Shown here one piece after another: positions 7,200-54,553 of a stretch of DNA of 64,000 nucleotides. Position 1 is the first letter of the stretch. Each line of letters opens with the position of its first letter. Source of the stretch: Membranipora membranacea (lineage: Eukaryota > Bryozoa > Gymnolaemata > Cheilostomatida > Membraniporidae); the NCBI GenBank assembly GCA_914767715.1, contig OU612071.1, positions 20,454,948 to 20,518,947 of the forward strand, given 5' to 3'. The notes beneath the pieces are model-generated. The model did not search any database and had not been told where the DNA came from. It saw nothing but the letters and a program-made list of their open reading frames with translations. Position numbers and translations under genes: made by a program.

Positions 7200-10100
7200 C
7201 TAGTATCTAGGGCAGTAAGCTGTGTATCTCTTTGTCAGTGCAGGTGTGAAGTAACATCCCCTCTGTGTTATCTCAGCCAGACACTGCACTGTATAATTAT
7301 GCTCGATGCTGCAAAAAGAAGACTTTAGTTGAGACACAGTCATGTGTCACTGCAAAATCAGCGTCGGCTTTTCATTGATTAAATTATATCTGCTAGCAAG
7401 TTCAATATCAAGAAATTGGCACAATCTGAATGAAAATATCTATGACCATCATTTGATGTATATGTAATGGAGTTAGTGATGTATTGATGACATGTGACAA
7501 ACTTACTTGGTCTCTCCACATCTAAAGCTTCCTTCGTTCGTTAGATGAAAGCATTGTTCCAATGGCCAACAACCTAAAATACATAATCATTAATAAATTT
7601 CTTGAATACAGATTTTTTACTCACTTGGCATCGGTTCTTTGGCCACTTACTACTGCCTGCAAAACATTCGATTTTAAAGACTACCGAATTACCAGAGCAC
7701 TACCTAGTCTTGCAGGATGGGTAGTGGTTAGGATTCGAGTATCTCAATCTGAGAGGTGCAGGTTCGAATCCCGGTCACTACCCATGCTGCTGAAGGAGGT
7801 GAGCTCTCTGGACAATAGCCTAGCTTGCCCACTCCTACCTTGTACCGGATTGTGCTAAAATGAATATGTATATGTCTCTTTGTTATATTCCTGTAAAGAT
7901 TGCTGGAGAGCAGCTAATAAAAAATGATTGACATTTATATTAACAATATCGTCAGTAGCTGGAAATTTACGTTCAAACTGGAAAAATACAAAGATCTTCA
8001 GGGGAAAACCTATTTATTGTACTATAAGCTGTGACCCCTGCTAATCAATAAGGTATCTATGACTATGACCTGCACAAGCCCTATAGGCTATCACTCCAAC
8101 ATATATTTGGGTTATTGATATTTCCAGATGAACTAGAAATTAATATATTTTCCTTGAGAGGCGCCATTGTCATAGATTGACCTTTGTAGAGAGTTCTATG
8201 ATAATAATAACAATAAAAAAAAAAATAATAATAAAGTTTATTTATGAAACGCTTAATAAAATGGTTTGAAAACAATGATTTCTAAGCGATGTACATGTTA
8301 TAAAAGGTCAATTAAGAATGGCAACTGCCCAACACCTAAAGATCCACTATAAAACCTACATATTACATGGGGTATATGCTTCACAGAACGGATGCGTTTT
8401 TGACTGTGATTTAAATGAGGAGGTCCATGGAAGAGAGACTGTGAAGGTAAGATGGTAGGGAGTTCCGCACATCTGGTAAAGTGGAATTAATGGATCGACC
8501 ACCCACTGTTTTTAGTTTACATTTAAAATTGCTCACAAGAGTGTTGGCTAAGTTGAATCGAGTGGTTCAGGCATGCTTAGAAGTTGTGAAAGATTGAGAA
8601 ATGTAGACAGGGATGAGATGGGGATGATGGGCGGTTTTATGAGCCATGATTGATATCTTGAATTTTGATCGGGACCTGATGGGTAGCCAGTGCAGTTTAC
8701 CGTGGTAGGTTATTTGGCTTTCACAGTCATAGTCAGCAATAGGTCCTAGATGAGCAGGATAGTCAATTTCTAACACTTTGCATCACTTACTTGGTTCAAT
8801 AGTAGGTTCTGGTAATTCATCACATATCTCATAGAGGAATCGTGTAGCATCGAGGCTCAACGAAAATGCTCCACTGAGGTCTGCGCTATCGTTACATGAT
8901 ACAGTATCATCCCAAAGAAGTGCCATAGCTCTACAAGCATAATAATATTGAAATACATTCTAACTATTTACGTGGTTGATTGGTTTCTGCATGACCGCCA
9001 AGGTGACTACCTTGATTTGAATAGGTTCAAAAGGTCTCAAAAGTCAAGGCGATGTTTAATGTTCATCACCAATATTGAAATAAGAAGAAGTGTTTCCCTT
9101 GTGTGCAACTCAATAATATACTGATACAAGATTGTGATAGGATGTTATTATCAATATCATCTATTGGATGAATTGATGTTTGCTCTACTTCTGCTCACCG
9201 GCTAATATATGCAGAAAACTGCTAACATTGAGAATATATATATATATCTAATTCCCTACTGTTCACTCACATGTCACAGCGCCCAGCCTCAGCTGCTGCT
9301 CTTGCAATGACTCTTGTTCTGTTATCTTGTGCAGCTGCCTCACAACCTGGGAGGCAGAAAACAATTATATTTTAAATTGCTGGCTCACATAGTTTTCTTG
9401 TATACATTTATTATATTGAGTTGTAATATTGTTTTAAATTGGACACAGTATATGATGTAGTAGTGTTCATCAATGTGCTGCTAAGTTTTACAAAGAACCT
9501 ATCCCACTGTTCTGGTCAGACATGTTTTGTGGCATTTTGGCTCGACTGGTTAAGGAAATATACTTACTCCTTGGGCAAAGTTCAGCAAGAAGTTTAGTGA
9601 ATCTCTTTACCAGAACTCCAGCATATGTACATCCATCTCCTGCGTATCGAGAGTAACACCCCAGTGCATTAAACCTTTTCTGGCTGTATAAATCATTCAA
9701 AGCATTAATATGAAACTCTCAACAAGTATATAAGTAGTAGTTTGTCGTATAAATAACCCATCAGCCGATCAGAAAACTGCGATGGGCCATTATATTGAAG
9801 TGGGATGAACAAGTATTTAGAAATATCATTTGTTGGGGCCAAATTTAGAAATCATCAAGTTTTGCCAGTTGATTATTTGTTTGTTATTAATGTTGTATTA
9901 TATTATGTGTGTTTGTAATGCTGGGAGATGCTCAGAACACAACCAGTTTGACTTGCAAGAAGCATGGACCTCATTTAATGGAAACACTAAAACTACATGT
10001 GCATATAATAGTCTGAGACATATGACATAGGTAAAGTATTCAAATACAAGAGTGGGTAATTCCAACCATACTGACTCTCGTGATCTGACTGGGCATGTAG

Positions 10101-13100
10101 ATCACTGATAAACTAGGCTATCATTACCACAAAGAGTATGTCGTAAGGCTAAGTATGTATCATGCGTGACTTGAATTTGCGCATGTGCAAGAACAATGAG
10201 TTTAGTCTGGGTTCTAATTGCAATTTTGGTCTGGGGAGAGAGGACACCCCCCTGCATAAATTGCCAGGCAAATTTAGCTAATTGTGACAATAGAAGATAA
10301 CTCTTTCTAACAATTCTGCACGCATTTGAGAGTGTGCCACCAGAGCAGGTAGCCAATCAGATGGCTTCGGAATTCCGAGACTCAATTTTGCAGAGATCAG
10401 CTCATGCCCAGAGCTGAGCATGCGCAGAATGAATTCCAACAATGACATGAACATGAGAAGACAATAACATATGAACACAATATGGCATGAGAAGACAATG
10501 ATCAATATTATACATGAATGCACTAATACAACATCCCCTCTCTAGTCTCACAAGCTGCAATGCAATATGAACATGAGAAGACAATAACACATGTACACAA
10601 TATGACATGAGAAGACAATGATCAATATCATACATGAATGTACTAATACAACAATTAACACCGGTAACTTGTCAATCCCAAAAAAATTGTAAGTCTCCCG
10701 CTCTGCTTGCTTTAATTTGAGCCTTGTGTATCACTTTATGTCACTGATAAAGACAATGTTTTGGATGATAGATTCTTTACTCACTCATTCACTCCACAGC
10801 CAGCAGTGAAGTCATTTGAAGGGTTCTGAGTAGTGCACTCAACAAGGGTATCACAGGCTGAAAGACAGAGAGAACACATGTGAGATTATGTTTGTTTCCT
10901 GTTGTATGTAAGTTTTTTGTTGGGTTGTTTTAAACACTAATTAGATTTCTACATCATATCCTTCCACATATTGTAGTCCAGTTACATTTGAGCCCAAAGC
11001 ACCATTCAACTAAGCTCGTGTGATTGCTCGATGCTTTAGGCTATTTATTTGCCCTAATGATGTCCACATTCCAAAATCAATTTGTTTGGTATAAGGCACG
11101 GCACTCCACTGCACCGTATCGCAAGGTATACTGCAGGTTTTGACACAGGGTAAGGCATGGGTCTTTTAATTGAGAGGTCCAAAGATCGATTCCCGGCGTG
11201 GCACGGTGGTGTCAGGAAGAGCATCCGACTTCAAATGCTCCTGTGCCCCATCAGGATCCAGTCCGTAGACCCGTACTGATACCAAGACAAAAAACCAAGT
11301 AACATCATGGTTTCTCACACGGTATCACAGGGTTCAAGACTATAAAATGGACGTGAGTTATAATATCAAATGCATATTTATGGTCTTCATTATTGTGTGT
11401 CATCAAATGCTTGAAGCCCCTGTGGAATGCCAGATGTGTATTGAAACCCAGCAACCACACTGATGACGTGATATACTATTGCATGTATATCTCTGATCGA
11501 TAGAGAGTGAATTAATTCACTTAGCCTGAGTGCAGCTGAAATTCAGTATTTAGGAGACGTATGGATGATTACCCAAACTTTTGGATATACACTTATCATT
11601 TTCTCATTCTTTGGTAAAATATTCTAATTTATATTTAGAAAATCTGATATCACCTTTTAACAGTTTTAGAAGAGCATTTAGCACCTGTTTTTGACAAGAA
11701 AAGTGACATCGAAACTGTGTATTGCTAGCCTAAGCTCAGAAAAGAGAACTAATAATGCAGAGCTAGGTAATTCTGTTTCGATCATGTCTGTTTGATAAAA
11801 TTGAAGTTGTCCTCTCTTCTAGCCAAATGTAGGTGCTAAATAGCTATATCGATCAGAGATACACATACTAATAGTGTAATCTCGAAATCAGTGTGCCCAG
11901 CAACAGTAACTTTTGTCATAAATCTGTAGGCCTATTTGAATTAATAAATCAAACTAAAATTTAATCAATTGAGCAATTACAGTTACATGATAAATAGCAA
12001 CTGCTCAGGAATTTTCGAAATTCAATAACAACATCAAACAGGAATCACCATGGATACCACCTGACCTGGTGGAAGAGAAGTTAGATTATCATCATTTTCA
12101 AGACATCCAGCTCCAATATATGTGTAATACAGTGGGAAGAGGGCGTACATGTCCTCTGCCCGGTCAACACCTCTCTGACAGTTCAAATCAAACACAACGA
12201 TATTCTCTCCGGCACTAAAATGTGTGATCATAAAACACTGACGATTTTTTGTGAGTAAGTGAGTGACATGCCAAAGTGGAGACAAAAGTACGATATTATG
12301 TCTCATAATATGTGACATAGTGTGTTGAAGTCATGAAATATGTCAGTGTGGTTATAAAAACAAAACAGAGTGATCTTGTGATACAACATGTGGTAGAGTG
12401 GTTTCAGTTACTCATCGTATGACTGAGTTTTACATTATAACCAAAATGGTAATCGAGTCTAAATTTTTAATTCTGACTGTGAACCTACTTATCTAATCAC
12501 CCTACTTTGATTGAGTGTCCTTTTAATCCAGTATTTTTTTAATCTTTGGTCATCAATTTGGTACATTTTTGGGGAGTTTTATTGTTTTAGGAGAAACAAC
12601 TATGTGGATTTTTTTCAGCACCAGTCAACCTCATGTGCAAATATATTTTAGTCAAATTCTTTATATTTGAATGCATTTTATAAAAGATTGACCTTGAACT
12701 TACTGTCTACAGTCCCCTGCATCAATTGACATATTCACCCGCTCATATACGGAACCAGTATCAAGACAACCTGAATTTGGAAAGAGGAGAGTCAAGACAA
12801 AGCAGATCAAATCTTAAGTTGAAGGACACACGTTTGAGTGTTATAACAAATCAGACACATTTCACTAGTTGCAGTGGAGTATCAGGGTGGTAATGACGAT
12901 TGGCTAACCATCACAATGTCTCTATTATTCATTAGTACACAAGAAAATATATTAATACAGTTTTAATGCTCTGATCATGATATAGTGAGTAGATTAAGTT
13001 AAGAACCCAAGCTATCTCAATGTGACCGGCTTTTTTTGCTTGGAGATAGGCTTGTCTTATATCACATCAATTTTTCATCGAAGCATAGATAGGCTGCCGC

Positions 13101-13853
13101 TGAGCAATGATAATTTGGCTTCAAATAAGTTTGCAATTATTCTACCCGCGATTAAAATTTTTCTTCATTATCAAAGAGCCTGGCTTTGCGCAGTCGATTT
13201 ATCTCATCTAAAAGTTAAATTTTCTGTCTTAGTCAATGCAAAGGTAAGATTAACATTAATTTGATCTGCATTTCTCTTGATACGCAAAGTAGAACTAGTA
13301 GCAATATTTACCCTGCGTTAAGGATCTAAAGCATGGTTGGATATTTTGACTTGCGTATATTACTTACTTTGAGTAGCTTGAGCAGTCAAAGGTGATGCAG
13401 GCTGACCTGTTGGGCCTGCACAGGAGTTTGAACAATCAGTCACATCTGGATGGTCACACACACAGACCCTTGTATTGAATCTCAGACCAGCAGGACAGTC
13501 CAGCTTCCTATCAGGATGACCAGATGTACTTTGCGTAAAGCTAGTGCAGCTGTCAGTTGATGAGACAGTGTACGTGTTACCTTTTCTCTCACATCTACAG
13601 GGTGCTACAAAAAAATTCATTTGTTGACGAACCATGCCTGGAGGAAAAAATCTTTCTGCAAGTAACCATCTTAAATAAGAATCTTGATTTGATTTACATA
13701 CTTCTGCAAGCTTCCTCTTGAAAGACGCCATCCTTGAAAAACAGCGATTTGAAGTTGGCATACAAAGTGATAGAATGTACCTTGAGATAAGACAGGATTG
13801 ATAAGCCCTACAGCTACAACACCAATTGTCAACAGTAATATCTTGTGCTGCAT
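7200..13853 (-). CDS. Array copy 1: secreted CBM14-like plus double ten-Cys module protein (diverged)
   Basis: Ten exons, 5' to 3': 13853-13781, 13604-13368, 12770-12704, 12214-12066, 10857-10785, 9683-9568, 9346-9271, 8930-8791, 7573-7507 and 7308-7200 (TAG). All phases fit and the product is 368 residues. Exon 1 encodes a signal peptide (MQHKILLLTIGVVAVGL...). Exon 2 holds the CBM14-like domain (LDCPAGLRFN...CVCDHPDVTDC) and is 9 bases longer than in the other copies; exon 4 is 3 bases shorter. Exons 3-6 and 7-10 encode the two ten-cysteine modules, and all twenty cysteines are kept. Sequons NMS (module 1) and NRT (module 2) fall between the first two cysteines of each. The intron 1 donor is a weak GTACAT where the other copies have GTGAGT. 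This is clearly the most diverged member. Introns are long and carry a LINE piece, two SINEs and a tandem repeat. Confidence 0.88.
7716..7927 (+). mobile_element. tRNA-derived SINE in intron 8 of array copy 1
   Basis: The head at 7719-7783 has complementary ends GGGTAGTG/CACTACCC, an A-box-like TGGTTAGGATTCG and a B-box GGTTCGAATCC at 7761-7771. An unrelated tail follows, ending in an A-rich AATAAAAAATG. At 65 bases with a shortened D-arm region, the head is too degenerate to be a working tRNA. It is antisense to the host gene. Confidence 0.7.
8200..8776 (-). mobile_element. 3' fragment of a CR1/L2-like non-LTR retrotransposon
   Basis: On the - strand, 8776-8567 encodes a piece with LHWLPIRSRSKFKISIM, the signature HWLP-x-R-x(3)-FKI of the reverse-transcriptase C-terminal tail in CR1/L2/Rex-type LINEs. 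Further on, broken by frameshifts, comes GRSINSTLPDVRNSLPSYL, matching the usual 'WNSLP' tail of the same ORF. It ends in an AT-rich trinucleotide tail near 8210. Dead and 5'-truncated, it sits in intron 8 of array copy 1 about 15 bases from the exon 8 donor. Confidence 0.75.
10447..10680. repeat. 120-bp direct tandem duplication
   Basis: Two units start at 10447 and 10567 with ATGAACATGAGAAGACAATA and run on to an ATACATGAATG-CACTAATACAACA-type segment. Each unit carries GAAGACAAT twice. It lies in intron 5 of array copy 1. Confidence 0.8.
11141..11310 (+). mobile_element. tRNA-Lys-like SINE in intron 4 of array copy 1
   Basis: The segment GGGTCTTTTAATTGAGAGGTCC resembles the anticodon arm of tRNA-Lys(UUU), and a B-box-like GATCGATTCCC follows at 11184-11194. 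The tail holds TCAGGAAGAGCATCCGACT, similar to the 'GGAAGGGCATCCGG' tail motif of several animal tRNA-Lys SINEs. The ends are approximate. Confidence 0.6.
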
Positions 13854-15447: not shown

Positions 15448-15518
15448 CTGAGATAAGACAGAATTGATAGCCCTTTTGCTGCAATTGTTGTCGATGGTAG
15501 TAACATCATGGGCTTTAT
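15448..15518 (-). pseudogene. Relic exon 1 (signal-peptide exon) of the array gene family
   Basis: On the - strand this aligns with exon 1 of array copy 1, including GGGCTATCAATTCTGTCTTATCTCAG against GGGCTTATCAATCCTGTCTTATCTCAAG, and the alignment continues into the flanking leader. The start ATG is ATA (15516-15518) and the segment is 2 bases shorter than the 73-base exon, so the frame is broken. A GT follows the exon end. I found no exons 2-10 downstream. It marks a lost member of the array. Confidence 0.65.
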
Positions 15519-15619
15519 CTGATCTGATTTCTTCAATAGTGTCTTCTTAGGTCAGAGGCAGCCTGGCGATAAGTGCTCTAAAAAGAGATGGTACGGTCAA
15601 TTTTTGATGGCAGGAAAAA

Positions 15620-18765: not shown

Positions 18766-21700
18766 TTAGTAATTAGGGCAGTGAGCAGAGAAGCGATCAG
18801 ACAGTGACGGTGTGAAGTAACATCCTCTATCTGTTATCTCAGCCAGACACTTGATAGTGTTCTCATTCTCTCTTCTGTAAAAGAGACAAACAAAGAAACA
18901 TCAGAACAAACTGTGAGAACGAAACCTCAGTCTATTTATTGTAGATCATAGGGTATCTTTTCGGGCCATGACTCATTCCGGAATTATATGATTATTTTCT
19001 CATTTCTCATTTGCTGGTATATTTATTCTAGTCTGCATGGCTTTGAGGTGTTGTGTGAATAGTAGTTTGTCTCTACCAGGTGGTAGAACAATTAATATTA
19101 TTGCTGATCTATTGCTGGTTTGAATAATAATTACCTGCTTGCACCGCATACAAACTTTCCTTCCTCTGTTAGCTGGAAGCATTGTTCCAACGGCCAGCAG
19201 CCTAAAATACAAATTTTGGTGAATTTCACAATACTCAATATAGATATAATGTAGCAAACTGAGATGTTTTTAGTGCCCATGAGAAGATATGGCACGACTA
19301 AATTTATTTCATCCCAGGCGCACCAGATTAGTTTTGTATGCGAGGCCTTATGAGACTGAGTACGGTCCCATGGTAACCTCGTTTTTTTTTGCACAGGAGC
19401 GGTAATGTCAATCATAACTAAGCATTGGCAACTTTCGGTTTAAACAAAATTAATGCGTTTTCATTGCATTAGTGAGCTCAAGCCTAACTCTGGAACTCTG
19501 ACAACTTGAGCAATTCTGGAGCAATTACCAAAGTTGTCGTGACCAATAATTGCCAGTTCAGTGAAATTTTAATTGAGCCCAACTCAGTAAGATAGAAGAC
19601 AATTATGGGAGCGCAAAGCATCGGAGCAAAATGTCTGGATTAGATCCTATCTAACTGAGACTGTGCTCACAAAACATGACTGGACATTAAGAGTGTGTTG
19701 TTTTCACTTACTTGGTTCAATAACTGGTTCTGGCAATTCATCACAAATCTGTGCAAAGAAACGTATAGTATCAATGCCAAACTGAAACGCTCCACTCAAG
19801 TCGGCACTATCATCACATGACGCGACGTCATCCCAGAGGAGTGTCATAGCTCTACAAACAAATTTATATTTACATGTTAGTCAACCGAATTTGATATTCT
19901 ATTGTAGAATATGAATGAGATGATAATTAAGCTATTGACAAGGATTTCCAGTATTGAAGTATCTCAATGTTAGCTAGCCATTACTACGTTTGTAGAATTT
20001 TCCACGAGAAGATAATTTATAACAAGAATTTGTTGACTCCAGCAGATGGTTAGTTTAAATTTCCACACAATGATTAACTCCAAGCACATACTACATCTGC
20101 ACACTGGCTTAATTTGCACACAGGAAATTTATACATGACTTTATTTTTGCACCTAGTTTTTTTATCAAAGGCTTTCAAGATTAATTCTTAGCTTCACTCA
20201 CAAGTCACAACGCCCGGCTTCCGCTGCTGCTCTAGCAATGACTCTTGTTCTGTTATCTTTAGCAGCTGCCTCACATCCTGGGAGGAAAAGTTTGATCATT
20301 AGAAATGGTGTTGAGATAACGAGATTATTTCTACAGGGGACTGTGTGAAACAGATCACAGTGCTACCATTTGCCGCTCAGCTAAACTATTTGAACTTTTA
20401 CTAATACTTACATGTGGTTTTGTTATAAGTTTTGATTTATTCTCTGTAATTCATTCGTATGAACCGGCTCAGCAATGATACTTGGCTTTGCGTTGGAGAG
20501 CTTGACTTACTTGGTGAACAGAGTTCTGAAAGATATTTGGAAAATCTTTTGACAAAAACTGCTGTATGTGTACAGCCGGCTGCTGCCCCGCGGGTGTAAC
20601 AATCCAGAACATTATATCTAACCTGGCTGTAAGAGAAACCGAAAACACGATGCACAAGCTGCATGAGTGAGTATTGTGAGCTTCTAGAAATTAAGATTGC
20701 ATGATTCTGTGGAAGGTGAATAAAATAATCGTACACAACACAAATTACGCAAAGAACACAATGCAATATCACTTAGTTCACTAGGCAATTACTTCTTTCA
20801 ATATAAAAAGACAACAGAATGGTCACCCACTTTAGTTTGCGAGCGCGTAATACAACTAGTACTTTTATTGAAATTCACAATATTTCGAATATTCATCAAA
20901 GTTTCCTACCAATGGACTTTTCAGCATTTTGTAGATTTTTTCCAGGTGAAAGATAGAGAAAACGAAATGAAAAAGTCAGAATTATCAAATTGTAGGTTTT
21001 GATTGGCCTGCATTAAACAATAGAGACAGTCTATATTGGCCTAATTGGAACTCTCAACTTTGCTTTACCTCACTTGTTACCGTAAATGTAATAATAATTA
21101 CTATGATTTTTTACTCACTTATTGACTCCACAGCCAGAGAAAAAGTCCATTTCAGGGTTTGTAAAGGCGCATTCGGATACGGCTACACATTCTACAAGAA
21201 AAAGAACACAGGTTAGGTGGTGTTGGCACCTTAATGATCATCTTTTTTATTATTCGATTCCATAAATTAATCACTGAAATACAGTGGAGGTGGTGTAGAG
21301 GCTACACCACCTCCACTGTATTTTTCTTATTTATATTGGCGAAAGCTTGTGAACTGAGCTGTTCAATCATGCAGTGTGCAATGACAAATCGTACTGCACC
21401 TGATAATTAATTGTCCCACAAGCTTCAAGCTTTAAGGTAATTTTTGGATGGAGGTAAGATTCTAATAATTATTAATTGATGAATTAATGTACATTTTTGT
21501 CTTTGCTTTATTTTATCTCTATAGTTACAAACTGACCTGGCTCAAGAGAAGGAATCTTCGAGATATCAGAACCAAGACATCCAGCATCAACATAGGTTAA
21601 GTACAAAGGCGCCATGGCTCCCAAATCACCTGCCCGATCTACTCCCGGCTGACAAGCCAAGTCAAAGGCTACAAACAATTCAGCGGCCCTAAAAATCATA

Positions 21701-23156
21701 AAACTGCATTCATGAGAAAATGCTTGGTGATACAACAACATGAATGTTGTCTAATAATCGAGAATGGAACAATCCGGTTTAGTATAGAGCATCAGTTTGG
21801 TTCGTAGAAGTCATTTTTTTATTCCATCACAACTAGTTTTGAATTAGTTGAGTCCGGAATATGAAAAGTAACCTTAACACCTTGTATAGTATTGTGTTGG
21901 GGGTAGGGTAGCAAATACGAGTATTTTTTGCATGCAACTGCAAATTTCCTGCCGGCCAAATGATGCCTAGGAGGTGATTGGGGAGCAATGAAATACAGAT
22001 TTACTAGACCAAAAGCAACCCCAGGTTCTTTACTTCAGTATCTGACCTTACGTTTCAAAAATATTTAGGAATTTCTTTGTTTTATCAATGCGAACATAAT
22101 GGTTAGTTTGTTTTTTCACTGAACTTACTTCTCACATTCGCCATTAGCAATTGTAGCATTGAGCTCTTCAAATAAACGGCCATTATCTGTACAATCTGAA
22201 AAAAGAATAAGGTCAGTGATGATCAAGATTTAGTGATATTTAATGTCAGTTTGTGATGAACTGAAGCTATGTTTCGAACAACTAAGGCTGATATAGTTAA
22301 AATTATAACTTAGATGAGTATGATAAATCAAAAGTGAAGAAGAAGGCTTATGCTGTTTTCAACTGGACGCTTCATTGCCAAGGACCCTGATGTTGTTTGA
22401 AAATACAATTATTTATGACTAGAAAGGCAGTGAAGCAAGTATACTTTAAAAATAATAAAATATTCTTCATAGAAAAAGCCAAGTATCTTAATACAAAAGA
22501 AACTTTAGAAGTACTTGGGGAGGCCATATGTGACTTTTATATGTATGTTTAATGTATTAAATGTATCTTGAAAACTAGTCTGAAGAGTATTAAAAATCTG
22601 ATTTCAGTCTAAGAATTTGATTTGTTTGTAACTTACACTGTATAGCCGGTGCAGTCACAGGGGATGGAGGCTGAGACGTACAAGTAGCTGGACAATCAGT
22701 CACAGCTGGATAGTCACAGACACAGGACCTTGTATTGAATATCTGACCAGCAGGACAGTCCAGGTTCCTATCAGGATGACCAGATGTACGTTGGGTAAAG
22801 CTGGAGCAGCTGTCAGCGGGAGACACTGTGTATGTGTTACCTCTTCTCTCACAGCTACAGGGGGCTATTAAAAATAAGATTATCGTTACAAAGCAGCTAC
22901 ATATAAGCTGGCCGCATCCTTATCATCAGCTCTATGATAAATCATAACCACTGATTTCCCAAAATTTAAAGTACTGGAGATGAGTGTTAAAATATAGCAA
23001 AATATACATCACTGTATTTTTAGCTCTGTAACGAAACCGGCATCCAAATAAATCAGTGAAGTATGTGGAGTGCAAACACTCACCTTGAGATGAGACAGAG
23101 TTGAATAGACCTAAGGCTACGACTGCAGCAGTCAACAACAAAATCTGGTGCTGCAT
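18766..23156 (-). CDS. Array copy 2: secreted CBM14-like plus double ten-Cys module protein
   Basis: Ten exons: 23156-23084, 22864-22637, 22195-22129, 21688-21537, 21191-21119, 20626-20511, 20277-20202, 19851-19712, 19201-19135 and 18874-18766 (TAA). Every intron is GT-AG and the phases run 1,1,2,1,2,1,2,1,2 to give 366 residues. Residues 1-24 are a signal peptide (LLLTAAVVALGL core). Residues 25-86 are CBM14-like: C29, C44, C61 (LDCPAGQIFN), C74 (CDYPAVTDC) and C82 follow the peritrophin-A pattern, but the usual third cysteine is absent (FTQRT) and C27, C72 and C86 are extra. A Pro-rich linker follows. Residues 101-236 and 237-366 are two related modules with ten cysteines each. N113 and N245 are N-glycosylation sequons at equivalent positions. 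I do not recognise the ten-Cys module. Its place in the extracellular space is well supported; its ligand is unknown. Confidence 0.92.
21277..21323. repeat. Perfect 22-bp hairpin in intron 4 of array copy 2
   Basis: The arm at 21277-21298 (AAATACAGTGGAGGTGGTG...) is matched exactly by its reverse complement at 21302-21323, with a 3-base loop. I found no such hairpin in intron 4 of copies 3-5. Confidence 0.9.
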
Positions 23157-26708: not shown

Positions 26709-29700
26709 TTAGTAATTAGGGCAGTGAGCAGAGAAGCGATCAGACAGTGACGGTGTGAAGTAACATCCTCTATCTGTTATCTCAGCCAGACACTTGATAG
26801 TGTTCTCATTCTCTGCTCTGTAAAAGAGACAAACAAAGAACCATTAGAACAAACTGTGAGAACAAAACCTCAGTATACTTATTGTAGATCAGAGGGAATT
26901 TTTTGCAGGCTACGACGGATTCCGGATAATTGATTTAATTTTCAATGTTAATTGCTTGAATAACTTTCCTGGTCTGCATGGCTTTGAGGTGTTGTGTGAA
27001 TAGTACTTGAACTTGATCAGGTGGTACACTAATTAATGTTATTGCTGATCTATTGCTGGTTTGTATAAGAATTACCTGCTTGCACCGCACACAAACTTTC
27101 CTTCTTCTGATAGCTGGAAGCATTGTTTTAACGGCCAGCAGCCTAAAATACAAATTTTTGACGAATTTCACAATTCTCAATATGGATATAATGTAGCAAA
27201 CAGAGATGTATTTAGTGCCCATGAGAAGATATGGCACGACTAAATTCATTTCATCCCAGGCGCACCACATTAGCTTTGTATGCGAGGCCTTATGAGACTG
27301 AGTACGGTCCCATGGTAACCTCGTTTTTTTTTGCACAGGGGCGGTAATGACAATCATAACTAAGCACTGGCAACTTTCGCTTACAAAATGTTTTGTGTTT
27401 TCATTGCAGTTGTTAGCTCAAGCCTAAATCTGGAACTCTGACAACTTGAGCAATTCTGGAGCGATTACCAATGTTGTTGTGACCAATAATTGCCAGTACA
27501 GTGAAATTTTTATTGAACAACTCAGTAAGATAGAAAACAATTATGGGAGAGCAAAGCAACGTAGCAAAATTTTAATCCTATGTAATTGAGACTGTTTTCA
27601 CATAACATGGCTTGACATTAAAGTTGTGGCTACACACACCGTATTTTCCACAGGATTGGGGCATCTGTAGCTTTGCCAGATGCATAGGATAGCTAGGTTA
27701 GCTCTGCCAGATGCCTCAGATTGGCTAACCAACTTGTTGGTTCTATCCGTAGCCGTAGCCGTAGTACGGCCAGCTATTCCTTTGTTATTTGTGAAAGAGG
27801 CGGGGCTTAATTAAATTACTAAATAGTGATTGGTTTAATTCATTCAAGTTGAACAATAGGAAGGCAAAGCAGACCCAAATTGTATTGTAATTGAAAGGAA
27901 TAGGCCTAGCTATTAATAGGCGTGTGTAGCACCTTGCCCAATTTGTAGCCTTACTAAAAGTTTCCCAATCCTATGGATAGTACAGCGTGTGTAGCCAGAG
28001 CTTAAGAGTGTGTTGTTTTCACTTACTTGGTTCAATAACTGGTTCTGGCAATTCGTCACAAATCTGCGCAAAGAAACGTGTAGTATCAATGCCAAACTGA
28101 AACGCTCCACTCAAGTCGGCACTATCATCACATGATGCGACGTCATCCCAGAGGAGTGTCATAGCTCTACAAACAAATTTATATTTGCTTGTTAGTCAAC
28201 CGAATTTGATATTCTATTGTAGAATGTGAATGGTAAAAAGCGTTATCTCATATTTTGATAATTTCAACTCAATTAAAATAATCCCTTATTTAAATGAAGA
28301 CTAATTATCCAACAATGTTCTTCTTTTGGAAATTAAATAAAGGATTAGTGACATGACATAATGGGATAATGTAAACTAATTAATAATTGTTTACTGTCAA
28401 GGAAATTTAATCTAAAGTTGGATACCTCTGAATTATTAAAATATGAGATAACGCTTTTTACCAGCAGTGCGCAGAATTATGCTATTGACAAGGATTTCCA
28501 GTCTTGAAGTATCTCAATGTTAGCTAGCCATTACTACCTTTGAAGAATTATCCAGGAGAAGATAATTTATAATAAGTATTTGTTGACTCAAGCAGATGGT
28601 TAGTTTAAATGTCCACACAATGATTAACTCCTAGCACATACTACATCTGCACACTGGCTTATTTTGCACACAGAAAATTTATATATGGACAGTAATTTTG
28701 ACAACAGTTTTCTATCAACAACTTTCAACATTGATTTGAGTCTTCACTCACATGTCACAACTTCCAGCCTCTGCTGCTGATCTAGCAATTTCTCTTGTTC
28801 TGTTATCTGCAGCAGCTGCTTCACAACCTGGGAGGAAAAGCTTGATCATTAGAAATTCTGTTAAGATTGCGAGATTTTTTCTTGGTGAGACTGTGTGTGA
28901 CACCTCACAGTGCTAGCATCTGCTGCTCAGCTTTATACTACTGCTGTCACTCCTAATTCAATAACCACACATTTGATGTTAAGGTGGGATGAGAGACAGA
29001 GAGGGGATATGGGAAGAATCCTAATTAGTATTTGCTTTTGACTGATCAGTATAATTAGAGGCTGAGACTAGCCCTCTCACAGCCAGGCTACGTTGCATTA
29101 GGGTTTTGCATGTAAAGCACTCGATATTTTTCTCAAGTGGTCAGGTGTATTATATAAGAAATTGTGATTCCCATAGACCTGTAATTAATGTTGTATAGCA
29201 GCGTATGCTGTGGTTATTTCTATGTTGATGATATGGCTATTGCTATGTTGGCTCATCACACTTGGGATTATAGGGTTTTATTACAATGTTCCATTTCAAT
29301 TGTGACAATATGGTATCTAGGCAACCTCTGAAACCATAAAACATAAAACGTCAAAATCTACCAATTAGAGCCTGTGAAATTCAAAGCTGATTATTTGAAA
29401 TCAAAGGAACTGGGCAATTTTGTATAACATCAGATGTATTTTCACCACTTTCCATTGCGATTTTTGCCATACAAATTTATTGGGCATGTGTATCACACGA
29501 ATCCGCATCAGCACATCCCATCCAATTGAAAAATATTTATTGCTGCTCCTCTTAATCCCGAAATAGCAGGAGGAATTTGAATGCTGCTAACCCTATTTGC
29601 ATTTGTTGTGGTTGGGTGATCGCTTTATGTTGACTGGGCCCTTTTTACCCCTCTTCCCACATTAATATTGAATTCTGTATAGCTGAAAGATAATTAATTG

Positions 29701-41310: not shown

Positions 41311-41317
41311 GCATCTA

Positions 41318-44300
41318 TTAGTAATTAGGGCAGTGAGCAGAGAAGCGATCAGACAGTGACGGTGTGAAGTAACATCCTCTATCTGTTATCTCAGCCAGAC
41401 ACTTGATAGTGTTCTCATTCTCTGCTCTGTAAAAGAGACCAACAAAGAACCATTAGAACAAACTGTGAGAACAAAACCTCAGTATACTTATTGTAGATCA
41501 GAGGGAATTTTTTTCAGGCTACGACGGATTCCGGAATAATTGATTTAATTTTCAATGTTAATTGCTTGAATAACTTTCCTGGTCTGCATGGCTTTGAGGT
41601 GTTGTGTGAATAGTACTCGAACTTGATCAGGTGGTACAATAATTAATATTATTGCTGATCTATTGCTGGTTCGTATAAGAATTACCTGCTTGCACCGCAC
41701 ACAAACTTTCCTTCTTCTGATAGCTGGAAGCATTGTTTTAATGGCCAGCAGCCTAAAATACAAATTTTTGACGAATTTCACAATACTCAATATGGATATG
41801 AGAAGATATGACAGAACTCAGTTTATTTCATCCCAGGAGCACCAGATTAGTTTTGTATGCGATGCCTTATAAGACTGAGTACGGTCCCATGGTAACCTCG
41901 TTTTTTATGCACAGGGGCAGTTATGTCAATCGTAACTAAGCATTGGCAACTTTCGTTTAAAAAATGTTATGTGTTTTCATTGCAGTTGTTAGCTCAAGCC
42001 TAACTCTGGAACTCAGACAAATTGAGCAATTCTGGTGCGATTACCAAGGTTGTTGTGACCGATAATTGCCAGTTCAGTGAAATTTTAATTGAGCCCAACT
42101 CAGTAAGAAAGAAGGCAATTATGGGAGCGCAAAGCATCGGAACAAAATGTCTTGATTAAATCCTATCTCACTGAGACTGTGCTCACAAAACATGGCTGGA
42201 CATTAAGAGTATGTTATTTTCACTTACTTGGTTCAATAACTGGTTCTGGCAACTCATCACATATCTGTGCAAAGAAACGTATAGTATCAATGCCAAACTG
42301 AAACGCTCCACTCATGTCGGCACTATCATCACATGATGCGACGTCATCCCAGAGGAGTGTCATAGCTCTACAAACAAATTTATATTTACATGTTAGTCAA
42401 CCGAATTTGATATTCTATTGTAGAATGTGAATGAGATGATAATTATGCTATTGACAAGGATTTCCAGTATTGAAGTATCTCAATGTTAGCTAGCCATTAC
42501 TACGTTTGTAGAATTATCCAGGAGAAGATAATTTATAACAAGTATTTGTTGACTCCAGCAGATGGTTAGTTTAAATTTCCACACAATGATTAACTCCCAG
42601 CACATACTACATCTGCACACTGGCTTATTTTACACACAGATAATTTATATATGGACAGTATTTTTGCCCACAGTTTTCTATCAACAACTTTCAACATTGA
42701 TTTGAGTCTTCACTCACATGTCACAACGTCCAGCCTCTGCTGCTGCTCTAGAAATGTCTCTTGTTCTGTTATCTTCAGCAGCTGCTTCACAACCTGGGAG
42801 GAAAAGCTTGATCATTAGAAATTCTGTTAAGATTGCGAGATTTTTTCTTGGTGAGACTGTGTGTGACACCTCACAGTGCTAGCATCTGCTGCTCAGCTTT
42901 ATACTACTGCTGTCACTCCTAATTCAATAACCACACATTTGATGTTAAGGTGGGATGAGAGACAGAGAGGGGACAAGAGAAGAATCCTAATTAGTATTTG
43001 CTTTTGGCAAGCAAGACTATTGGCTGATCAGTATAATAAGAGGCGGAGACTAGCCTTCTCACAGCCAGTCTACGTTGCATTTGGGTTTTGTGTGTAAAGC
43101 ACTCGATATTTTTCTCAAGTGGTCAAGTGTAATATATAAGAAATTGTGATTCGCATACACCTGTAATTAATGTTGTATAGCAGCGTATCACAGAGTATGA
43201 TATGGTTATTTCTATGTTGATGATATGGCTATTGCTATGTTGGCTCATCACACTTGGGATTATAGGATTCTATTACAACGGTCAACCTCTGAAACCATAA
43301 ATCATAAAACATCAAAATCTACCAACTAGAGCCTGTGAAATTTTAAGCTGATTATTTGAAATCAAAGGAACTGGGCAATTTTGTGTAACATCAGATGTAT
43401 TTTCACCACTTTCCAATGCGAATTTTGCCATAAAGATTTATTGGGCATGTGTATCACACAAATCCGCATCATCACATCCCATCCAATTGAAAACTATTTA
43501 TTGCTGCTCCTCTTAATCCCGAAATAGCAGGAGGAATTTCAATGCTGCTAACCCTATTTGCAATTGTTGTGGTTTGGGTGATCGCTTTATGTTGACTGGG
43601 CCTTTTTTACCCCCTTCCCACATTAATATTGAATTCTGTATAGCTGAAAGGTAATTAATTGCAGTCAAAATCTTGAAATTTTCACCTAGCAGTCAAATAA
43701 TATGCATAAACTCTAAATTCTGGGTATGAAATTAACCACTAGGTGATAACATCATTAATGTCAAAAAGTAAGACCTTACTTCATCACTACATACAATGAA
43801 TAATTGACTTCATAGCGATTTTGATGGTTAGTTATATGCAAACTATTTGCCCATCAAGCGACAATGCTGAGATTGCAGCTTCATATAATTAGTTTTGGGC
43901 TATATGTCATTTAATAAGCACACATTTGCCTGAGTGGCAGCAGCGTTTTTTGTTATAAGCTTTAGTTTTGCCTCTGTAATTTATTTGTACTTACTTCTTG
44001 GACATGATCTTTCAAGATATTTCGAAGTTCTTTTGAGTAATACATTAGCATATCTACAGCCTGCTTCTGCTTCTCGGGACCAACACTCAAGAGCATTAAA
44101 TCTAATCTGGCTGTCAGAGAAACCACAATATAATAAAACAAACTGCGTGAGGACACAATGTAAAAAGCGCAAAGTATACAAAGTGATTTCACTTAGTTCA
44201 CCAAGCAAATAACTCACCCAGTATATCTTGGCAAATAAACATGATAAGTACCACATAATGGCCACCCCTCATCGGTTTGCAGCAAAATACCACTAATGCT

Positions 44301-46504
44301 TTCATCGTTATGCACAATTTGGAAAACGAAACACTTGAAAACATCCAATTGTTTGTCTTGATTGACCTGCATAAAGTAATTATAAATAAATTGATCTCAT
44401 GGAAAATGATCAGCCAGGCTTAATGTTATGGTTCAATAGGAACACCCCTTATTGCTTCATGCTACTTGTATACCATAAATTCAATATTACTATAATTTTT
44501 TGAACTCACTCATTAATTCCACAGCCAGAGAAAATGTCCATTTCAGGGTTAGAAGAGAAGCATTTGGAGATGCTCAGACAAGCTACAAGGAAAATAATAC
44601 AGATTAGGAGATGTTGGCACCTAAATGACTGTCTAATCTTCACTTTGGTTTTCTTGATAACCCATCTGCATTATTTTTGTGTTGGAAGAATCTTGTTGAC
44701 TGGGCTAAGTAGTGTGCAGCGGCCCGTTAAATCTTAATAATAATTAATGGATCTGAGGTAAGGTTCTAATGTTTATTTATCGCTGAATTAAGGAACCTTT
44801 TTCTCTGTTTTATAATACCTCTATGGTTACAAACTGACCTGGCTCAAGAGAAGGAATTTTCGAATAATCAGAACCCAGACATCCAGCCGCTAAATATGTC
44901 AGGTACAGAGGTTCCATGGCTTTTAAGTCATCTGCCCGATCTACTCCCTGCCGACAAGCCAATTCAAACGCTACAATCAATTCTGCAGCTCTAAAAATAA
45001 AAATTTAATGGATGTATGATAAAATGCTTGGTAATACAACCTAAATAAATTTGATCTAATAATACAAAACAAAACTTTGTGGTTCAGTTATACATGAGTC
45101 TAGCCTGTAGCGTCTGTTTTATTTATCTCAATACAACTATTTTTGGATAAGTTGAGCTGGGAATAAGAAAAATACTCTCACGTCATTGTGTTGTACGTTG
45201 TTGTGGGTAGGGGAGCTAATTCCAGTTGATTTGCATGTGCTCGCAAGTTTTCTGTTGGCCAAATGGTGCCTAAGAGTTGATTGAGGAGCGATAAAATACA
45301 GATTCTCCCGACCGAAACAACCCTAGGTTCATTTACTACAGCATTTTACCTTCAAAAAGGGATTTCTTCATGAGCATATTTATTATCATCTCTGTTAAAG
45401 GAAATTAAATAAACATTGAGAAACACAATACTCTTGTTTTGACTACATGTGATGTGTTTAATTATTGGAACAAAAACATAACATGACTTACTTCTCACAT
45501 TCGCCGCTAGCAATTGTGGCATTAACCTCTTCAAATACACGGCCATTATCTGCACAATCTAAAAAAAGGTCAGTGAAGAGCTCCAATATCGTGATTCAGT
45601 CGTATTTCAGGGAAGTTTGTAAAGAACTGTAGCTATATCTCAACCAAATCTCGGAGTAACTGGGGCTGACATAGTTGAAAGTAAACCTTTGATGAGCAGC
45701 ATTGATTGAAAGTGAAGCAGGCTTATGCTATTGTCAACTGAATGCTTCATTGCCAAGGACCCTGATGCTTTTTTAATATACAATTATCTATGCTAATATA
45801 GGCAGTAAAGCGAGTATACTGTAAAAATAATTAGAATATCCTTCATAGGAAAAGCCGAGTACATTGGGGGGGGGGGGCATATGTGGTGTTTATACAGGAG
45901 TTAAATACTATGTATCTTGAAAACTAGTCTTAAGAGTAATATAGAGATCTTAACTGGCTCTTACAACGTGACTCAGTTAATAACTTACACTGTTTAGCCG
46001 GTGCAGTCACAGGGGATGGAGGCTGAGATGTACAGATAGCTGGACAATCAGTTACAGCTGGATAGTCACAGACACAGGACCTTGTATTGAATATCAGACC
46101 AGCAGGGCAGTCCAGCTGTCTGTCAGGATGACCAGATGTACGTTGGGTGAAGCTAGAGCAGCTGACAGTAGGAGACACTGTGTACGTGTTACCTCTTCTC
46201 TCACAGCTACAGGGGGCTATTAAAAATAACATTATTGTTACATGGCAGCTACATATAAGCTGGCGGCAACCTCATCATTAGCTCAGTGATAAACCATTAA
46301 CAATGATTTCCAAAAATTTAAGGTACTGGAGATAAGTGTTAAAATATAGCAAAATATACATCTGTATTTTTCTCTGTAACGAGATCTGCATCCAAATAAA
46401 TCAGTGAAGTATGTGAAGTGCAAACACTCACCTTGAGATGAGACAGAGTTGAATAGCCCTAAGGCTAAGACTGCAGCAGTCAACAGTAAAATATCGTGCT
46501 GCAT
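41318..46504 (-). CDS. Array copy 4: secreted CBM14-like plus double ten-Cys module protein
   Basis: Exons: 46504-46432, 46216-45989, 45558-45492, 44990-44839, 44582-44510, 44110-43995, 42793-42718, 42367-42228, 41752-41686 and 41426-41318 (TAA). Exon lengths equal those of copy 2 and the product is 366 residues, starting MQHDILLLTAAVLALGL. It carries all cysteines, the NAT and NRT sequons, and module 1 variants such as ACLSISKCFSSNPEMD and CWSREAEAGCRYANVLLKR. Exon 10 is identical in protein to that of copies 3 and 5. Together with its flanks it forms an 8.0-8.3 kb unit repeated as copy 5. Intron 3 preserves the empty site for the 2.1-kb element of copy 3. Confidence 0.9.
45866..45877. repeat. 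Poly-G (12) tract, intron 2 of copy 4
   Basis: It occupies the same place as the tract at 34053-34067, followed by the same GCATATGTGG. Confidence 0.95.
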
Positions 46505-49640: not shown

Positions 49641-49647
49641 GCATCTA

Positions 49648-52600
49648 TTAGTAATTGGGGCAGTGAGCAGAGAAGCGATCAGACAGTGACGGTGTGAAGT
49701 AACATCCTCTATCTGTTATCTCAGCCAGACACTTGATAGTGTTCTCATTCTCTGCTCTGTAAAAGAGACAAACAAAGAACCATTAGAACAAACTGTGAGA
49801 ACAAAACCTCAGTATACTTATTGTAGCTCAGAGAAATTTTTTTGCAGGCTACGACCGATTCCGGAATAATTGATTTAATTTTCAATGTTAATTGCTTGAA
49901 TAACTTTCCTGGTCTGCATGGCTTTGAGGTGTTGTGTGAATAGTACTTGAACTTGATCAGGTGGTACAATAATTAATATTATTGCTGATCTATTGCTGGT
50001 TTGTATAAGAATTACCTGCTTGCACCGCACACAAACTTTCCTTCTTCTGATAGCTGGAAGCATTGTTTTAACGGCCAGCAGCCTAAAATACAAATTTTTG
50101 ACGAATTTCACAATACTCAATATGGATATAATGTAGAAAACGGAGATGTATTTAATGCCCATGAGAAGATAGGACAGAACTCAGTTTATTTCATCCCAGG
50201 CGCACCAGATTAGTTTTGTATGCGATGCCTTATAAGACTGAGTACGATCCCATGGTAACCTCATTTTTTTTTGCACAGGGGCAGTAATGTCAATCATAAC
50301 TAAGCATCGGCAACTTTCGTTTAAAAAACGTTATGTGTTTTCATTGCAGTTGTTAGCTCAAGCCTAACTCTGGAACTCAGACAAATTGAGCAATTCTGGT
50401 GCGATTACCAAGGTTGTTGTGACCGATAATTGCCAGTTCAGTGAAATTCTAATTGAGCCCAACTCAGTAAGAAGGAAGACAATTATGGGAGCGCAAAGCA
50501 TCGCAGCAAAATGTCTGGATTAAATCCTATCTAACTGAGACTGTGCTCACAAAACATGGCTGGACATTAAGAGTATGTTGTTTTCACTTACTTGGTTCAA
50601 TAACTGGTTCTGGCAACTCATCACATATCTGCGCAAAGAAACGTATAGTATCAATGCCAAACTGAAAAGCTCCACTCAAGTCGGCACTATCATCACATGA
50701 TGCGACTTCATCCCAGAGGAGTGTCATAGCTCTACAAACAAATTTATATTTACATGTTATAGTCAACCGAATTTGATATTCTATTGTAGCATATGAATGA
50801 GATGATAATAATGCTCTTGACAAGAATTTCCAGTCTTGAAGTATCTCAATGTTAGCTAGCCATTACTACGTTTGTAGAACTATCCAGGAGAAGATAATTT
50901 ATAACAAGCATTTGTTGACTCCAGCAGATGGTTTCGCTTAAACGTCCACACAATAATTAACTCCCAGCACATACTGCATCTGCACGCTGGCTTATTTTGC
51001 ATACAGGAAATTTATATATTCACAGTATTTTTGCCCACAGTTTTCTATCAACAACTTTCAAGATTGATTTGAGTCTTCACTCACATGTCACAACGTCCAG
51101 CCTCTGCTGCTGCTGTAGCAATGTCTCTTGTTCTGTTATCTTCAGCAGCTGCTTCACAACCTGGGATGAAAAGTTTGATCATTAGAAATTCTGTTAACAT
51201 TGCGAGATTTTTTCTTGGTGAGACTGTGTGTGACACCTCACAGTGCTAGCATCTGCTCCTCAGCTTTATACTACTGCTAATTCAATAATCACACATTTGA
51301 TGTTAAAGTGGGATGAGAGACAGAGGGGGGACATTGGAAGAATACTAATCAGTATTTGCTATTGGCAACCAAGACTATTAGCTGATCAGTATAATTGGAG
51401 GCGGAGACTAGCCTCCTCACAGCCAGTCTACGTTGCATTTGGGTTTTGTGTTTAAAAGACTCGATATTTTTCTCAAGTGGTCAAGTGTATTATATAGGAA
51501 ATTGTGATTCACATACACCTGTAATTAATGTTGTATAGTAGCGTATGATATGGTTTTTTCTATGTTGATGATATGGCTATTGCTATGTTGGCTCATCACA
51601 CTTGGGATTATAGGATCTTATTACAACGCACAATTTCAATTGTGACAATATGTTATCTAGGCAACCTCTGCAACCATAAATCATAAAACGTCAAAATCTA
51701 CCAATTAGAGCCTGTGAAATTTGAAGCTGATAATTTGAAATCAAAGGAACTGGGCAATTTTGTGAATAATTGACTTCATAGCCGATTTTGATGGTTAGTT
51801 AGTGCAAACTATTTGCCCATCAAGCGACAATGCTGAGATTGCAGCTTCATATAATTAGTTATGGGCTATACGTTATTTAATAAGCACACATTTGCCTGAG
51901 TGGCAGCAGCATTTTTTGTTATAAGCTTTAGTTATGCCTCTGTAATTTATTTGTACTTACTTCTTGGACATGATCTTTCAAGATATTTTGAAACTCTTTT
52001 GAGTAATACACTAGCATATCTACAGCCGGCTTCTGCCACTCGGGACCAACACTCCAGAGCATTAAATCTAATCTGGCTACAAGAGAGACCAAAGTATGAT
52101 AAACAAACGGCATGTGGACCTAATGTGAATAGCTCAAAGTATACAAAGTGATTTCACTTAGCTCACCAAGCAAATAACTCATTCAGTTTATCTTGGCAAA
52201 TAAACATGATAAGTACCACATAATGGCCACCCCTCATTGGTTTGCAGAAAAATACCACTAATGCTTTCTTCGTTATGCACAATTTGGAAAATCTACCAGA
52301 GCTTCCAACCAATAGAGACTTCAGCATGCCCTATGGTAGATTTTCTCTAGGAGAAGGACAAGGGGAAAAAACGAAACGTTTGAAAACATCCAATGGTTTG
52401 TCTTGATTGACGTGCATAAAGTAATTATGAATAAATTGATCTCATGGAAAATGAGCAGCCAGGCAGAATGTTATGGTTTAATTGGAACACCCCATGTTGC
52501 TTCATGCTGCTTGTATATCAAAAATTTAATATCACTAAAATTTTTGAACTCACTCATTAATTCCACAGCCAGATAAAAAGTCCATTTCAGGGTTTAAAGT

Positions 52601-54553
52601 GAAGCATTCGGCCATGCTCAGACAAGCTACAAGGAAAATAATACAGATTAGGAGATGTTGGCACCTAAATGACAGTCTAATCTTAACTTTGGTTTTCTTG
52701 ATAACCTATCTGCATTTTTTTTGTGTTGGAAGAATCTTGTTGACTGGGCTAAGTAGTGTCCGGCGCCCATTAAATCTTTAAAATAATTAATGGATCTGAG
52801 GTAAAGTTCTAATGTTTATTTATCGCTGAATTAAGGAACCTTTTTCTCTGTTTTATATTACCTCTATGGTTACAAACTGACCTGGCTCAAGAGAAGGAAT
52901 CTTCGAATAATCAGCACCCAGACATCCAGACGCTATATATGTCAGGTGCAGAGGTTCCATGACTTTTAAGTCTTCTGCTCGATCTACTCCCTGCTGACAA
53001 GCCAATTCAAATGCTACAATCAATTCTGCAGCTCTAAAAATAAATATTTAATGGATGTATGATAAAATGCTTGGTAATACAACTTATATCAATTTGATCT
53101 AATAGTACAAAACAAAACTTCGTGGTTCAGTTATACATGAGTCTAGCGTGTAGCGTCTGTTTATTTTTTATCTCAATACAACTTTTTTTGGATAAGTTGA
53201 GCTGAGAATAAGAAAAATACTCTCACGTCATTGTGTTGTACCTTGTTGTGGGTAGGGGAGCTAATTCCAGTTGATTTGCGTGCACTCGCAAGTTATCTGT
53301 TGGCCAAATGGTGCCTAAGATTTGATTGAGGAGCGATAAAATACAGATTCTCCCGACCGAAACAACCCTAGGTTTATTTACTACAGCATTTGCCCTTCAA
53401 AAAGGGATTTCTTCATGAGCATATTAAATATCATCTCTGAAGGAAAGTAAATAAACGTTGAGACACACAATACTCTTGTTTTGACTACATGTGATGTGTT
53501 TAATTATTGGAACAAAAACATAACATGGCTTACTTCTCACATTCGCCGCTAGCAATTGTGGCATTAAGCTCTTCAAATACACGGCCATTATCTGCACAAT
53601 CTAAAAAAAGGTCATTGAAGAGCTACAATATCGTGATTCAGTCGTATTTCAGGGAAGTTTGTAATGAACTGTAGCTATATCTCAACCGAATCTCGGAGTA
53701 ACTGGGGCTGACATAGTTGAAAGTAAACCTTTGATGAGCAGCATTGATTGAAAGTAAAGCAGGCTTATGCTATTGTCAACTGAATGCTGTATTGCCAAGG
53801 ACCCTGATGCTTTTTGAATATACAATTATCTATGCTAAGATAGGCAGTGAAGCGAGTATACTGTAAAATAGTTAGAATATCCTTCATAGGAAAAGCCGAG
53901 TACATCGGGGGAGGGGGGGGGGCATATGTGGTGTTTATACAGGAGTTAAATACTATGTATCTTGTAAACTAGTCTAAAGTGTAATAGAGATCTGAACTCA
54001 CTCTTACAATGTGACTCAGTTAATAACTTACACTGTATAGCCGGTGCAGTCACAGGGGATGGAGGCTGGGATGTACAGGCAGCTGGACAATCAGTTACAG
54101 CTGGATAGTCACAGACACAGGACCTTGTATTGAATATCTGACCAGCAGGGCAGTCCAGGTTCCTATCAGGATGACCAGATGTACGTTGGGTGAAGCTAGA
54201 GCAGCTGTCAGTAGGAGACACTGTGTACGTGTTACCTCTTCTATCACAGCTACAGGGGGCTATTAAAAATAAGATTATTGTTTCATGGCAGCTACATATA
54301 AGCTGGCAGCAACCTCATAATTAGCTCAGTGATAAATCATAGAGAATGATTTCCCAAAATTTAAGGTACTGGAGATAAGTGTTAAAATATAACAAATTTA
54401 ATATACATCTGTATTTTTAGCTCTGTAACGAGACCTGCATCCAAATAAATCAGTGAAGTATGTGAAGTGCAAAAACTCACCTTGAGATGAGACAGAGTTG
54501 AGTAGCCCTAAGGCTAAGACTGCAGTAGCCAACAGGAAAATCTGGTGCTGCAT
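49648..54553 (-). CDS. Array copy 5: secreted CBM14-like plus double ten-Cys module protein
   Basis: Exons: 54553-54481, 54259-54032, 53600-53534, 53033-52882, 52626-52554, 52076-51961, 51160-51085, 50731-50592, 50082-50016 and 49756-49648 (TAA). Same exon lengths as copy 2 and 366 residues, with signal peptide MQHQIFLLATAVLALGL. The CBM14-like domain keeps the copy 2 version (HPDRNLDCPAGQIFN) rather than the RQLDCPAGLIFN of copies 3 and 4. Module 1 is closest to copy 4 (CWSRVAEAGCRYASVLLKR). So the exons of this gene have mosaic affinities. Intron 6 lacks about 430 bases that copies 3 and 4 have. This is the 5'-most member of the array; no further copy follows before 60 kb. Confidence 0.9.
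53907..53922. repeat. Interrupted poly-G tract, intron 2 of copy 5
   Basis: Sixteen bases, all G but one A, at the same place as the tracts in copies 3 and 4. Confidence 0.95.

Follow-up and report, generated by a model that had tools for sequence, protein, structure and literature searches.

A multi-locus gene family in Membranipora membranacea predicted to encode proteins with a leader, a CBM14-like module and two ten-cysteine repeats

Results

Five head-to-tail genes in the window

The window, by which we mean the whole 64,000-nucleotide stretch that was analysed (C7:20454948-20518947; the genome searched comprises 18 contigs totalling 339.3 Mb), carries five minus-strand genes, c1–c5, which lie head to tail and span 7200–54553. 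The gene c5 was assembled by hand from reading frames, and the others were found by exon search.

49648..54553, minus strand: gene c5, 366 codons, hand assembly and exon search; exons 54553-54481, 54259-54032, 53600-53534, 53033-52882, 52626-52554, 52076-51961, 51160-51085, 50731-50592, 50082-50016, 49756-49648
41318..46504, minus strand: gene c4, 366 codons, exon search; exons 46504-46432, 46216-45989, 45558-45492, 44990-44839, 44582-44510, 44110-43995, 42793-42718, 42367-42228, 41752-41686, 41426-41318
26709..34694, minus strand: gene c3, 366 codons, exon search; exons 34694-34622, 34405-34178, 33765-33699, 31111-30960, 30704-30632, 30153-30038, 28827-28752, 28166-28027, 27142-27076, 26817-26709
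18766..23156, minus strand: gene c2, 366 codons, exon search; exons 23156-23084, 22864-22637, 22195-22129, 21688-21537, 21191-21119, 20626-20511, 20277-20202, 19851-19712, 19201-19135, 18874-18766
7200..13853, minus strand: gene c1, 368 codons, exon search; exons 13853-13781, 13604-13368, 12770-12704, 12214-12066, 10857-10785, 9683-9568, 9346-9271, 8930-8791, 7573-7507, 7308-7200
15449..15547, minus strand: degenerate remnant of another (sixth) coding exon 1 and of its 5' flank; identity to c1 72% (blastn E 1.2e-7)

The exon search, which required ATG or AG at the start of each exon, GT or a stop at its end, the phases of c5 and open frames, recovered 50 of 50 exons, ten in every copy, with no internal stop. 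Exon phases (0,1,1,2,1,2,1,2,1,2) are identical across c1–c5. The same kind of search with c1, c2 and c5, considering the top eight candidates per exon, gave no ordered ten-exon chain in any of 17 controls: three runs on opposite strands, 12 on block-shuffled sequence and two on the 55–64 kb segment, one per strand. The observation of five intact gene models, predicted from sequence, is confirmed. An earlier note on this DNA had described five intact head-to-tail genes with fifty exons in consistent phases and stop-free frames of 366 or 368 codons; the search bears out each element, with 366 codons in c2–c5 and 368 in c1, and the outer coordinates that it gave, 54553 and 7200, match the models exactly. 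Scanning the window for Rfam families and tRNAs gave no hits.

All five predicted products share one layout, in which a leader (exon 1) and an eight-cysteine CBM14-like module (exon 2) are followed by two repeats, A and B, and 28 cysteines are kept in each protein. The exon 1 product is a hydrophobic leader, called as a signal peptide by eye. With the first 24 residues removed, the mature array proteins are about 37 kDa and acidic (pI 4.5–4.7). N-glycosylation motifs stand at 113 and 245 in all four of c2–c5; c1 carries five such motifs, at other positions. Inspected by eye, the array proteins contain no low-complexity stretch.

Dispersed relatives and relics

The genome was searched with c5 and with one of its relatives, C5a, and the loci were then read; the matches listed are exon-level. 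Four further genes emerged on two other contigs.

C8:2.41 Mb: gene C8, 383 codons, open, ten exons with array phases
C5:15.43 Mb: gene C5a, 393 codons, open, ten exons with array phases
C5:23.61 Mb: gene C5c, 396 codons, open, ten exons with array phases
Head to head with C5a: gene C5b, exons 3–10 open, repeats only

The 4.6 kb that separate exon 1 of C5a from exon 3 of C5b yielded no CBM exon for C5b. The repeats of the four dispersed genes are 40–47% identical to the array copies. The family therefore counts at least nine genes with intact repeats, a lower bound. The earlier note put forward an expanded, putatively lineage-specific family of extracellular effector or matrix proteins; that family extends beyond this tandem array, with open-frame members on two further contigs. 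These dispersed open paralogues rule out a five-gene local oddity.

Many further CBM14 matches occur elsewhere in the same genome. Profiles of exons 4–10 were run over 20 stretches, namely 18 ten-kb stretches around some of those matches (L012–L029) and the two C8 flanks (L030, L031), and fell below E 1e-3 in one of them, L019, which is the C5c locus; the next-best row was a lone exon-10-like match in L031 (E 0.0093). Three other loci are degenerate.

L032: inverted copy of C5c, about 120–130 kb away from it; CBM exon spread across three frames, at least three cysteines lost
L033: degenerate relative; two pieces on opposite strands, one resembling exon 10 and the other exon 6
L034: degenerate relative; exon 4 split between frames, no CBM exon seen

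These relics differ from the open genes in a way that argues for the latter being functional.

A divergent CBM14-like module

54032..54259, minus strand: c5 exon 2, eight-cysteine CBM14-like module, a symmetrical phase 1-1 exon with Pfam CBM_14 and PDB profile matches
45989-46216, 34178-34405, 22637-22864 and 13368-13604, minus strand: the exon 2 counterparts in c4, c3, c2 and c1

Pfam CBM_14 (PF01607) matches all five window exons over the full profile at 27.6–32 bits, against a cut-off of 22.1, and the exon 2 profile finds a chitinase (6g9c, E 4.2e-6) and tachycitin (1dqc, E 0.014) in the PDB. CBM14 domains have six canonical cysteines that form three disulfides. In the alignments with 6g9c and 1dqc the third of these is replaced, by Arg in c2–c5 and by Ser in c1, and the full canonical set of six is not present; an extra cysteine stands two residues ahead of the fifth canonical one, and exon 2 contains eight cysteines in total. 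The first canonical cysteine falls outside both alignments, and its position was taken from the span of the Pfam match. Pfam finds one CBM_14 stretch per protein in c5 and in C8. None of the three dispersed genes with an exon 2 passes the cut-off, C8 scoring 19.6 bits (below 22.1) and C5a and C5c giving no match. AlphaFold2, run on the CBM exon with a five-sequence input, returned a mean pLDDT of 50, which is unusable.

Exon 2 is thus predicted to encode a divergent CBM14, a call that is firm in the array and weaker in the dispersed genes. The chitin-binding-like domain proposed earlier stands in so far as all five array exons exceed the Pfam cut-off, and is weakened by the missing canonical cysteine and by the scores of the three dispersed genes. 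Filing the protein as a canonical CBM14 protein was rejected on the same two grounds.

Two ten-cysteine repeats of common origin

51961..53600, minus strand: c5 repeat A (exons 3–6), ten cysteines, a phase 1-1 module of four exons
49648..51160, minus strand: c5 repeat B (exons 7–10), ten cysteines, the exon-by-exon counterpart of repeat A

The exon boundaries and phases of A and B match exon by exon, and a comparison of their profiles aligned 108 columns with an hhalign probability of 88% (E 2.9e-6). Ten cysteines are present in all 18 repeats of the nine genes (the five array genes, C8, C5a, C5b and C5c), in support of the double ten-cysteine C-terminus noted earlier, and all 18 fit the spacing C-x18-21-C-x13-C-x23-26-C-x11-14-C-x5-C-x7-13-C-x12-C-x8-C-x13-17-C. 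The tree built from all 18 repeats places A and B on opposite sides of one branch with support of 100/100; the internal duplication is therefore older than the observed gene duplications.

Database searches assigned the repeats to no family. Pfam scans at E up to 10, covering eight of the ten window repeats and six of the eight tandem regions then known, gave chance-level rows below curated cut-offs, the best (E 0.029) in C5c; NCBIfam gave chance-level rows at E 0.14 or worse, and a PDB sequence search began at E 0.11 with no credible match. The GDNF-receptor/GAS1 domain, the Frizzled CRD and stanniocalcin each have about ten cysteines in a small extracellular domain, and Pfam includes models for all three; they were absent from the Pfam matches to the repeats scanned (E up to 10) and from the PDB sequence matches, and filing the repeats under any of these ten-cysteine families was rejected.

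Full-length and tandem-repeat queries had no match among 5.8 billion proteins. Because the coverage of spliced eukaryotes in that set is uncertain, absence from it says little about other animals. The A1 profile had a single match there, a protein of 78 residues corresponding to c1 exon 4 with intron flanks. The residues that precede the exon in this protein differ from those of the window, and it may therefore derive from another individual. In the literature, as far as its text was available in part, no paper describing a protein with a leader, a CBM14-like module and a double ten-cysteine repeat was found. The predicted C-terminal module thus has no credible match in the libraries searched. 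Profile searches in these libraries returned no well-known family for the C-terminal repeats, and the earlier view that neither the whole protein nor its C-terminus belongs to a known family held in Pfam, NCBIfam, the PDB and the protein database.

Constraint and unequal variability among array copies

Protein identity is 89–92% within c3, c4 and c5, 82–83% between c2 and c3–c5, and 63–64% between c1 and the rest. Whole-CDS dN/dS (Nei–Gojobori) is 0.32–0.37 for c1 against the rest and 0.36–0.39 for c2 against c3–c5, that is 0.32–0.39 over the seven pairs that contain c1 or c2; the three pairs within the young copies c3–c5 give 0.60–0.87. These values indicate coding frames that are, for the most part, under constraint. 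Intact frames, cysteines and splice borders, together with the dN/dS of the older pairs, led us to reject a pseudogene array.

The gene c2 is a mosaic. Against c4 and c5, its exons 1–3 and 7–10 are 87–98% identical and its exons 4–6 only 69–82%; its introns 1, 7 and 8 are 88–92% identical, introns 2–6 63–77% and intron 9 82%. This mosaic is best explained by partial gene conversion or unequal exchange.

Repeat A varies more than repeat B. Among c2–c5 the variable residues number 8/24 in the leader, 9/76 in the CBM module, 52/136 in A and 14/130 in B; among c3–c5, a set free of the c2 mosaic, they number 7/24, 8/76, 24/136 and 9/130 respectively. The difference between A and B has a Fisher p of 1.9e-7 among c2–c5 and 0.009 among c3–c5. 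A is also more variable than the CBM module among c2–c5 (p 3e-5); among c3–c5 that difference is not significant (p 0.23). The dN/dS of repeat A is 0.40–1.25 among c3–c5 and 0.44–0.55 for c2 against c3–c5. Among c3–c5 the CBM module reaches 0.64–1.99 and the leader, with 5–6 changes, as much as 3.8; because these values, on few changes, are as high as those of A or higher, they do not demonstrate positive selection aimed at A.

Discussion

The sequence analysis establishes a genuine gene family spread over several loci, with five copies intact in the window and a predicted C-terminal module foreign to the libraries searched. The comparisons show the predicted genes to form an old birth-and-death family, in which A and B were duplicated before the genes split.

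We favour, at a probability of roughly 40%, a secreted protein that is tethered to chitin or another glycan and has a barrier-associated recognition or effector role, with A as its variable face. The CBM14-like module would anchor the protein, once secreted, to chitin or to some other matrix rich in GlcNAc, such as mucus, gut lining, tube or cuticle, and each ten-cysteine module would be a small fold locked by about five disulfides. Repeat B may then be the conserved scaffold or docking half, and A, the more variable repeat, would meet a changing ligand; the likeliest role of such a molecule would be that of a recognition or effector protein at a barrier. The array presumably grows by tandem duplication, while gene conversion partly homogenises its copies. 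The sequence shows the gene structure, the modular composition, the constraint and the duplication history; from these we infer that the protein is secreted, that disulfides lock its repeats, that the CBM14-like module acts as the tether and that A is the variable face. Speaking against this reading are the lack of a significant excess of variation in A over the CBM module among c3–c5, dN/dS values that do not single out A, and a CBM14 call that lacks one canonical cysteine and weakens in the dispersed genes.

Nearly as likely is a purely structural role in a secretion made of chitin or mucus, as in a tube, a cuticle, the gut lining or an egg coat. There the repeats would cross-link the matrix or make it stiffer, and the array would serve to raise dosage. 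An acidic, cysteine-rich protein with a leader peptide and a single CBM14-like module suits such a role, as do the many other CBM14 matches in the genome, and tandem duplication with conversion-like mosaics would keep repeat B and the CBM module similar. Dosage alone, however, would not favour the greater divergence of A than of B between recent copies, and the absence, by eye, of low-complexity stretches from the array proteins also speaks against a structural role. The CBM14-like module would also suit a role in feeding or digestion, in which the protein would bind chitin or compounds from the diet within the gut, acting, for instance, as a cofactor or protector of hydrolases. EHEP is built of CBM14-type modules, but to our knowledge it has no ten-cysteine repeats. 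In the sea hare, EHEP is reported to protect a digestive enzyme (PMC10619976). With no catalytic domain and no credible enzyme similarity in the proteins described here, we consider a digestive role unlikely.

At the other extreme, most copies could be in decay and have survived by chance, no more than one of them still working. Decay does take place in the family, as the relic exon 1 in the window and the degenerate copies at L032, L033 and L034 show, and the dN/dS of the youngest copies, c3–c5, also favours this explanation. Yet each array gene has an open frame with all 28 cysteines and every splice border retained, which sets the five apart from the degenerate copies, and the older comparisons have dN/dS well under 1; we regard this explanation as very improbable. 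The preferred reading, a tethered recognition or effector protein, accommodates the unequal conservation of A and B, and it is this inequality, together with the orphan ten-cysteine repeat, that makes the family worth following up.

If the ten-cysteine repeat is a new domain, domain catalogues would gain an entry, and a search profile, for a secreted module some 130 residues long, with all its cysteines kept throughout an old family. Otherwise, it would be yet another expansion of secreted matrix proteins. Expanded families of secreted cysteine-rich or matrix proteins are common in invertebrates, and the surprise is therefore limited.

Among known systems, the likeness to CBM14/peritrophin-A (PF01607) lies in the array exon 2, which exceeds the cut-off and matches chitinase and tachycitin; here, by contrast, the module is a single copy joined to a C-terminus without a family. 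Peritrophins, obstructors and EHEP are likewise secreted and CBM14-bearing, but mostly contain several CBM14 copies, whereas the predicted proteins combine one CBM14-like module with ten-cysteine repeats and are not multi-CBM14 matrix proteins.

By analogy, the working logic of the family resembles that of VCBPs, in which two immunoglobulin V domains are N-terminal to the CBD. Like VCBPs, the protein would be secreted and would carry a chitin-binding module alongside further modules held by disulfide bonds, two in number, a likeness of working and not of membership. In Pfam, full-length c5 gave CBM_14 and one chance-level row with no immunoglobulin domain, and membership of the VCBPs was rejected. 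VCBPs are reported to have immunoglobulin V domains with which they bind bacteria and to bind host chitin in gut mucus, and VCBP-C is a precedent for a tether plus recognition (PMC4757023, PMC6414549); c5, in contrast, has no such domain by Pfam, and its CBM-like module comes first. The boldest form of our proposal, speculative and rather unlikely when taken whole, would make the ten-cysteine repeat a new animal disulfide-rich domain and would make the family a counterpart of VCBPs that does without immunoglobulin domains. Its products would be secreted recognition proteins tethered to chitin, in which the proximal A diversifies among tandem paralogues while selection and gene conversion hold the distal repeat and the tether steadier. 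Should A prove to be a variable ligand-binding face, the family would represent another way, besides that of VCBPs, to join a chitin tether to diversifying recognition at a body surface.

Relatives of the array family elsewhere in the genome

Exons of CBM14 type are numerous beyond the family, as seen in the 18 ten-kb stretches around other CBM14 matches (L012–L029), where they frequently occur as two consecutive exons; some are clustered, for example at C5:10.56–10.63 Mb. In a profile search, a ten-cysteine exon at E < 1e-3 was absent from 17 of these 18 stretches. Degenerate relatives of the array family lie in three further stretches:

L032, from C5:23475001
L033, from C10:19929701
L034, from C5:3571501

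One of these is an inverted near-copy of C5c, a dispersed open ten-exon gene, and is 120–130 kb distant from it.

Other features of the window and the upstream regions of the array genes

15449–15547 (−), degenerate coding exon 1 together with 5′ flanking sequence, showing 72% identity with c1
16177–16944, tandem repeat, 146-base unit, 5.5 copies
58921–59358 (−), open piece, possible non-LTR retrotransposon reverse transcriptase end, by eye
1065–1361, 1503–1745 and 3829–4161 (+), open pieces rich in Cys and Arg
25870, 36008, 39677, 47498, 48011 and 55872 (−), TATA-box-like sites with a GAGGAG motif after them

The relic at 15449–15547 is what is left of a sixth copy that has been lost. Neither the open piece at 58921–59358 nor the plus-strand pieces matched Pfam; the latter are perhaps exons of an adjoining gene.

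The TATA-box-like/GAGGAG sites sit within repeated units upstream of c2–c5, with two each for c3 and c4, and an acceptor-like CAG lies 25 bases 5′ of the ATG of coding exon 1 in c1 and c5. Because of these two features, the promoters may be duplicated, and a non-coding exon may lie 5′ of coding exon 1.
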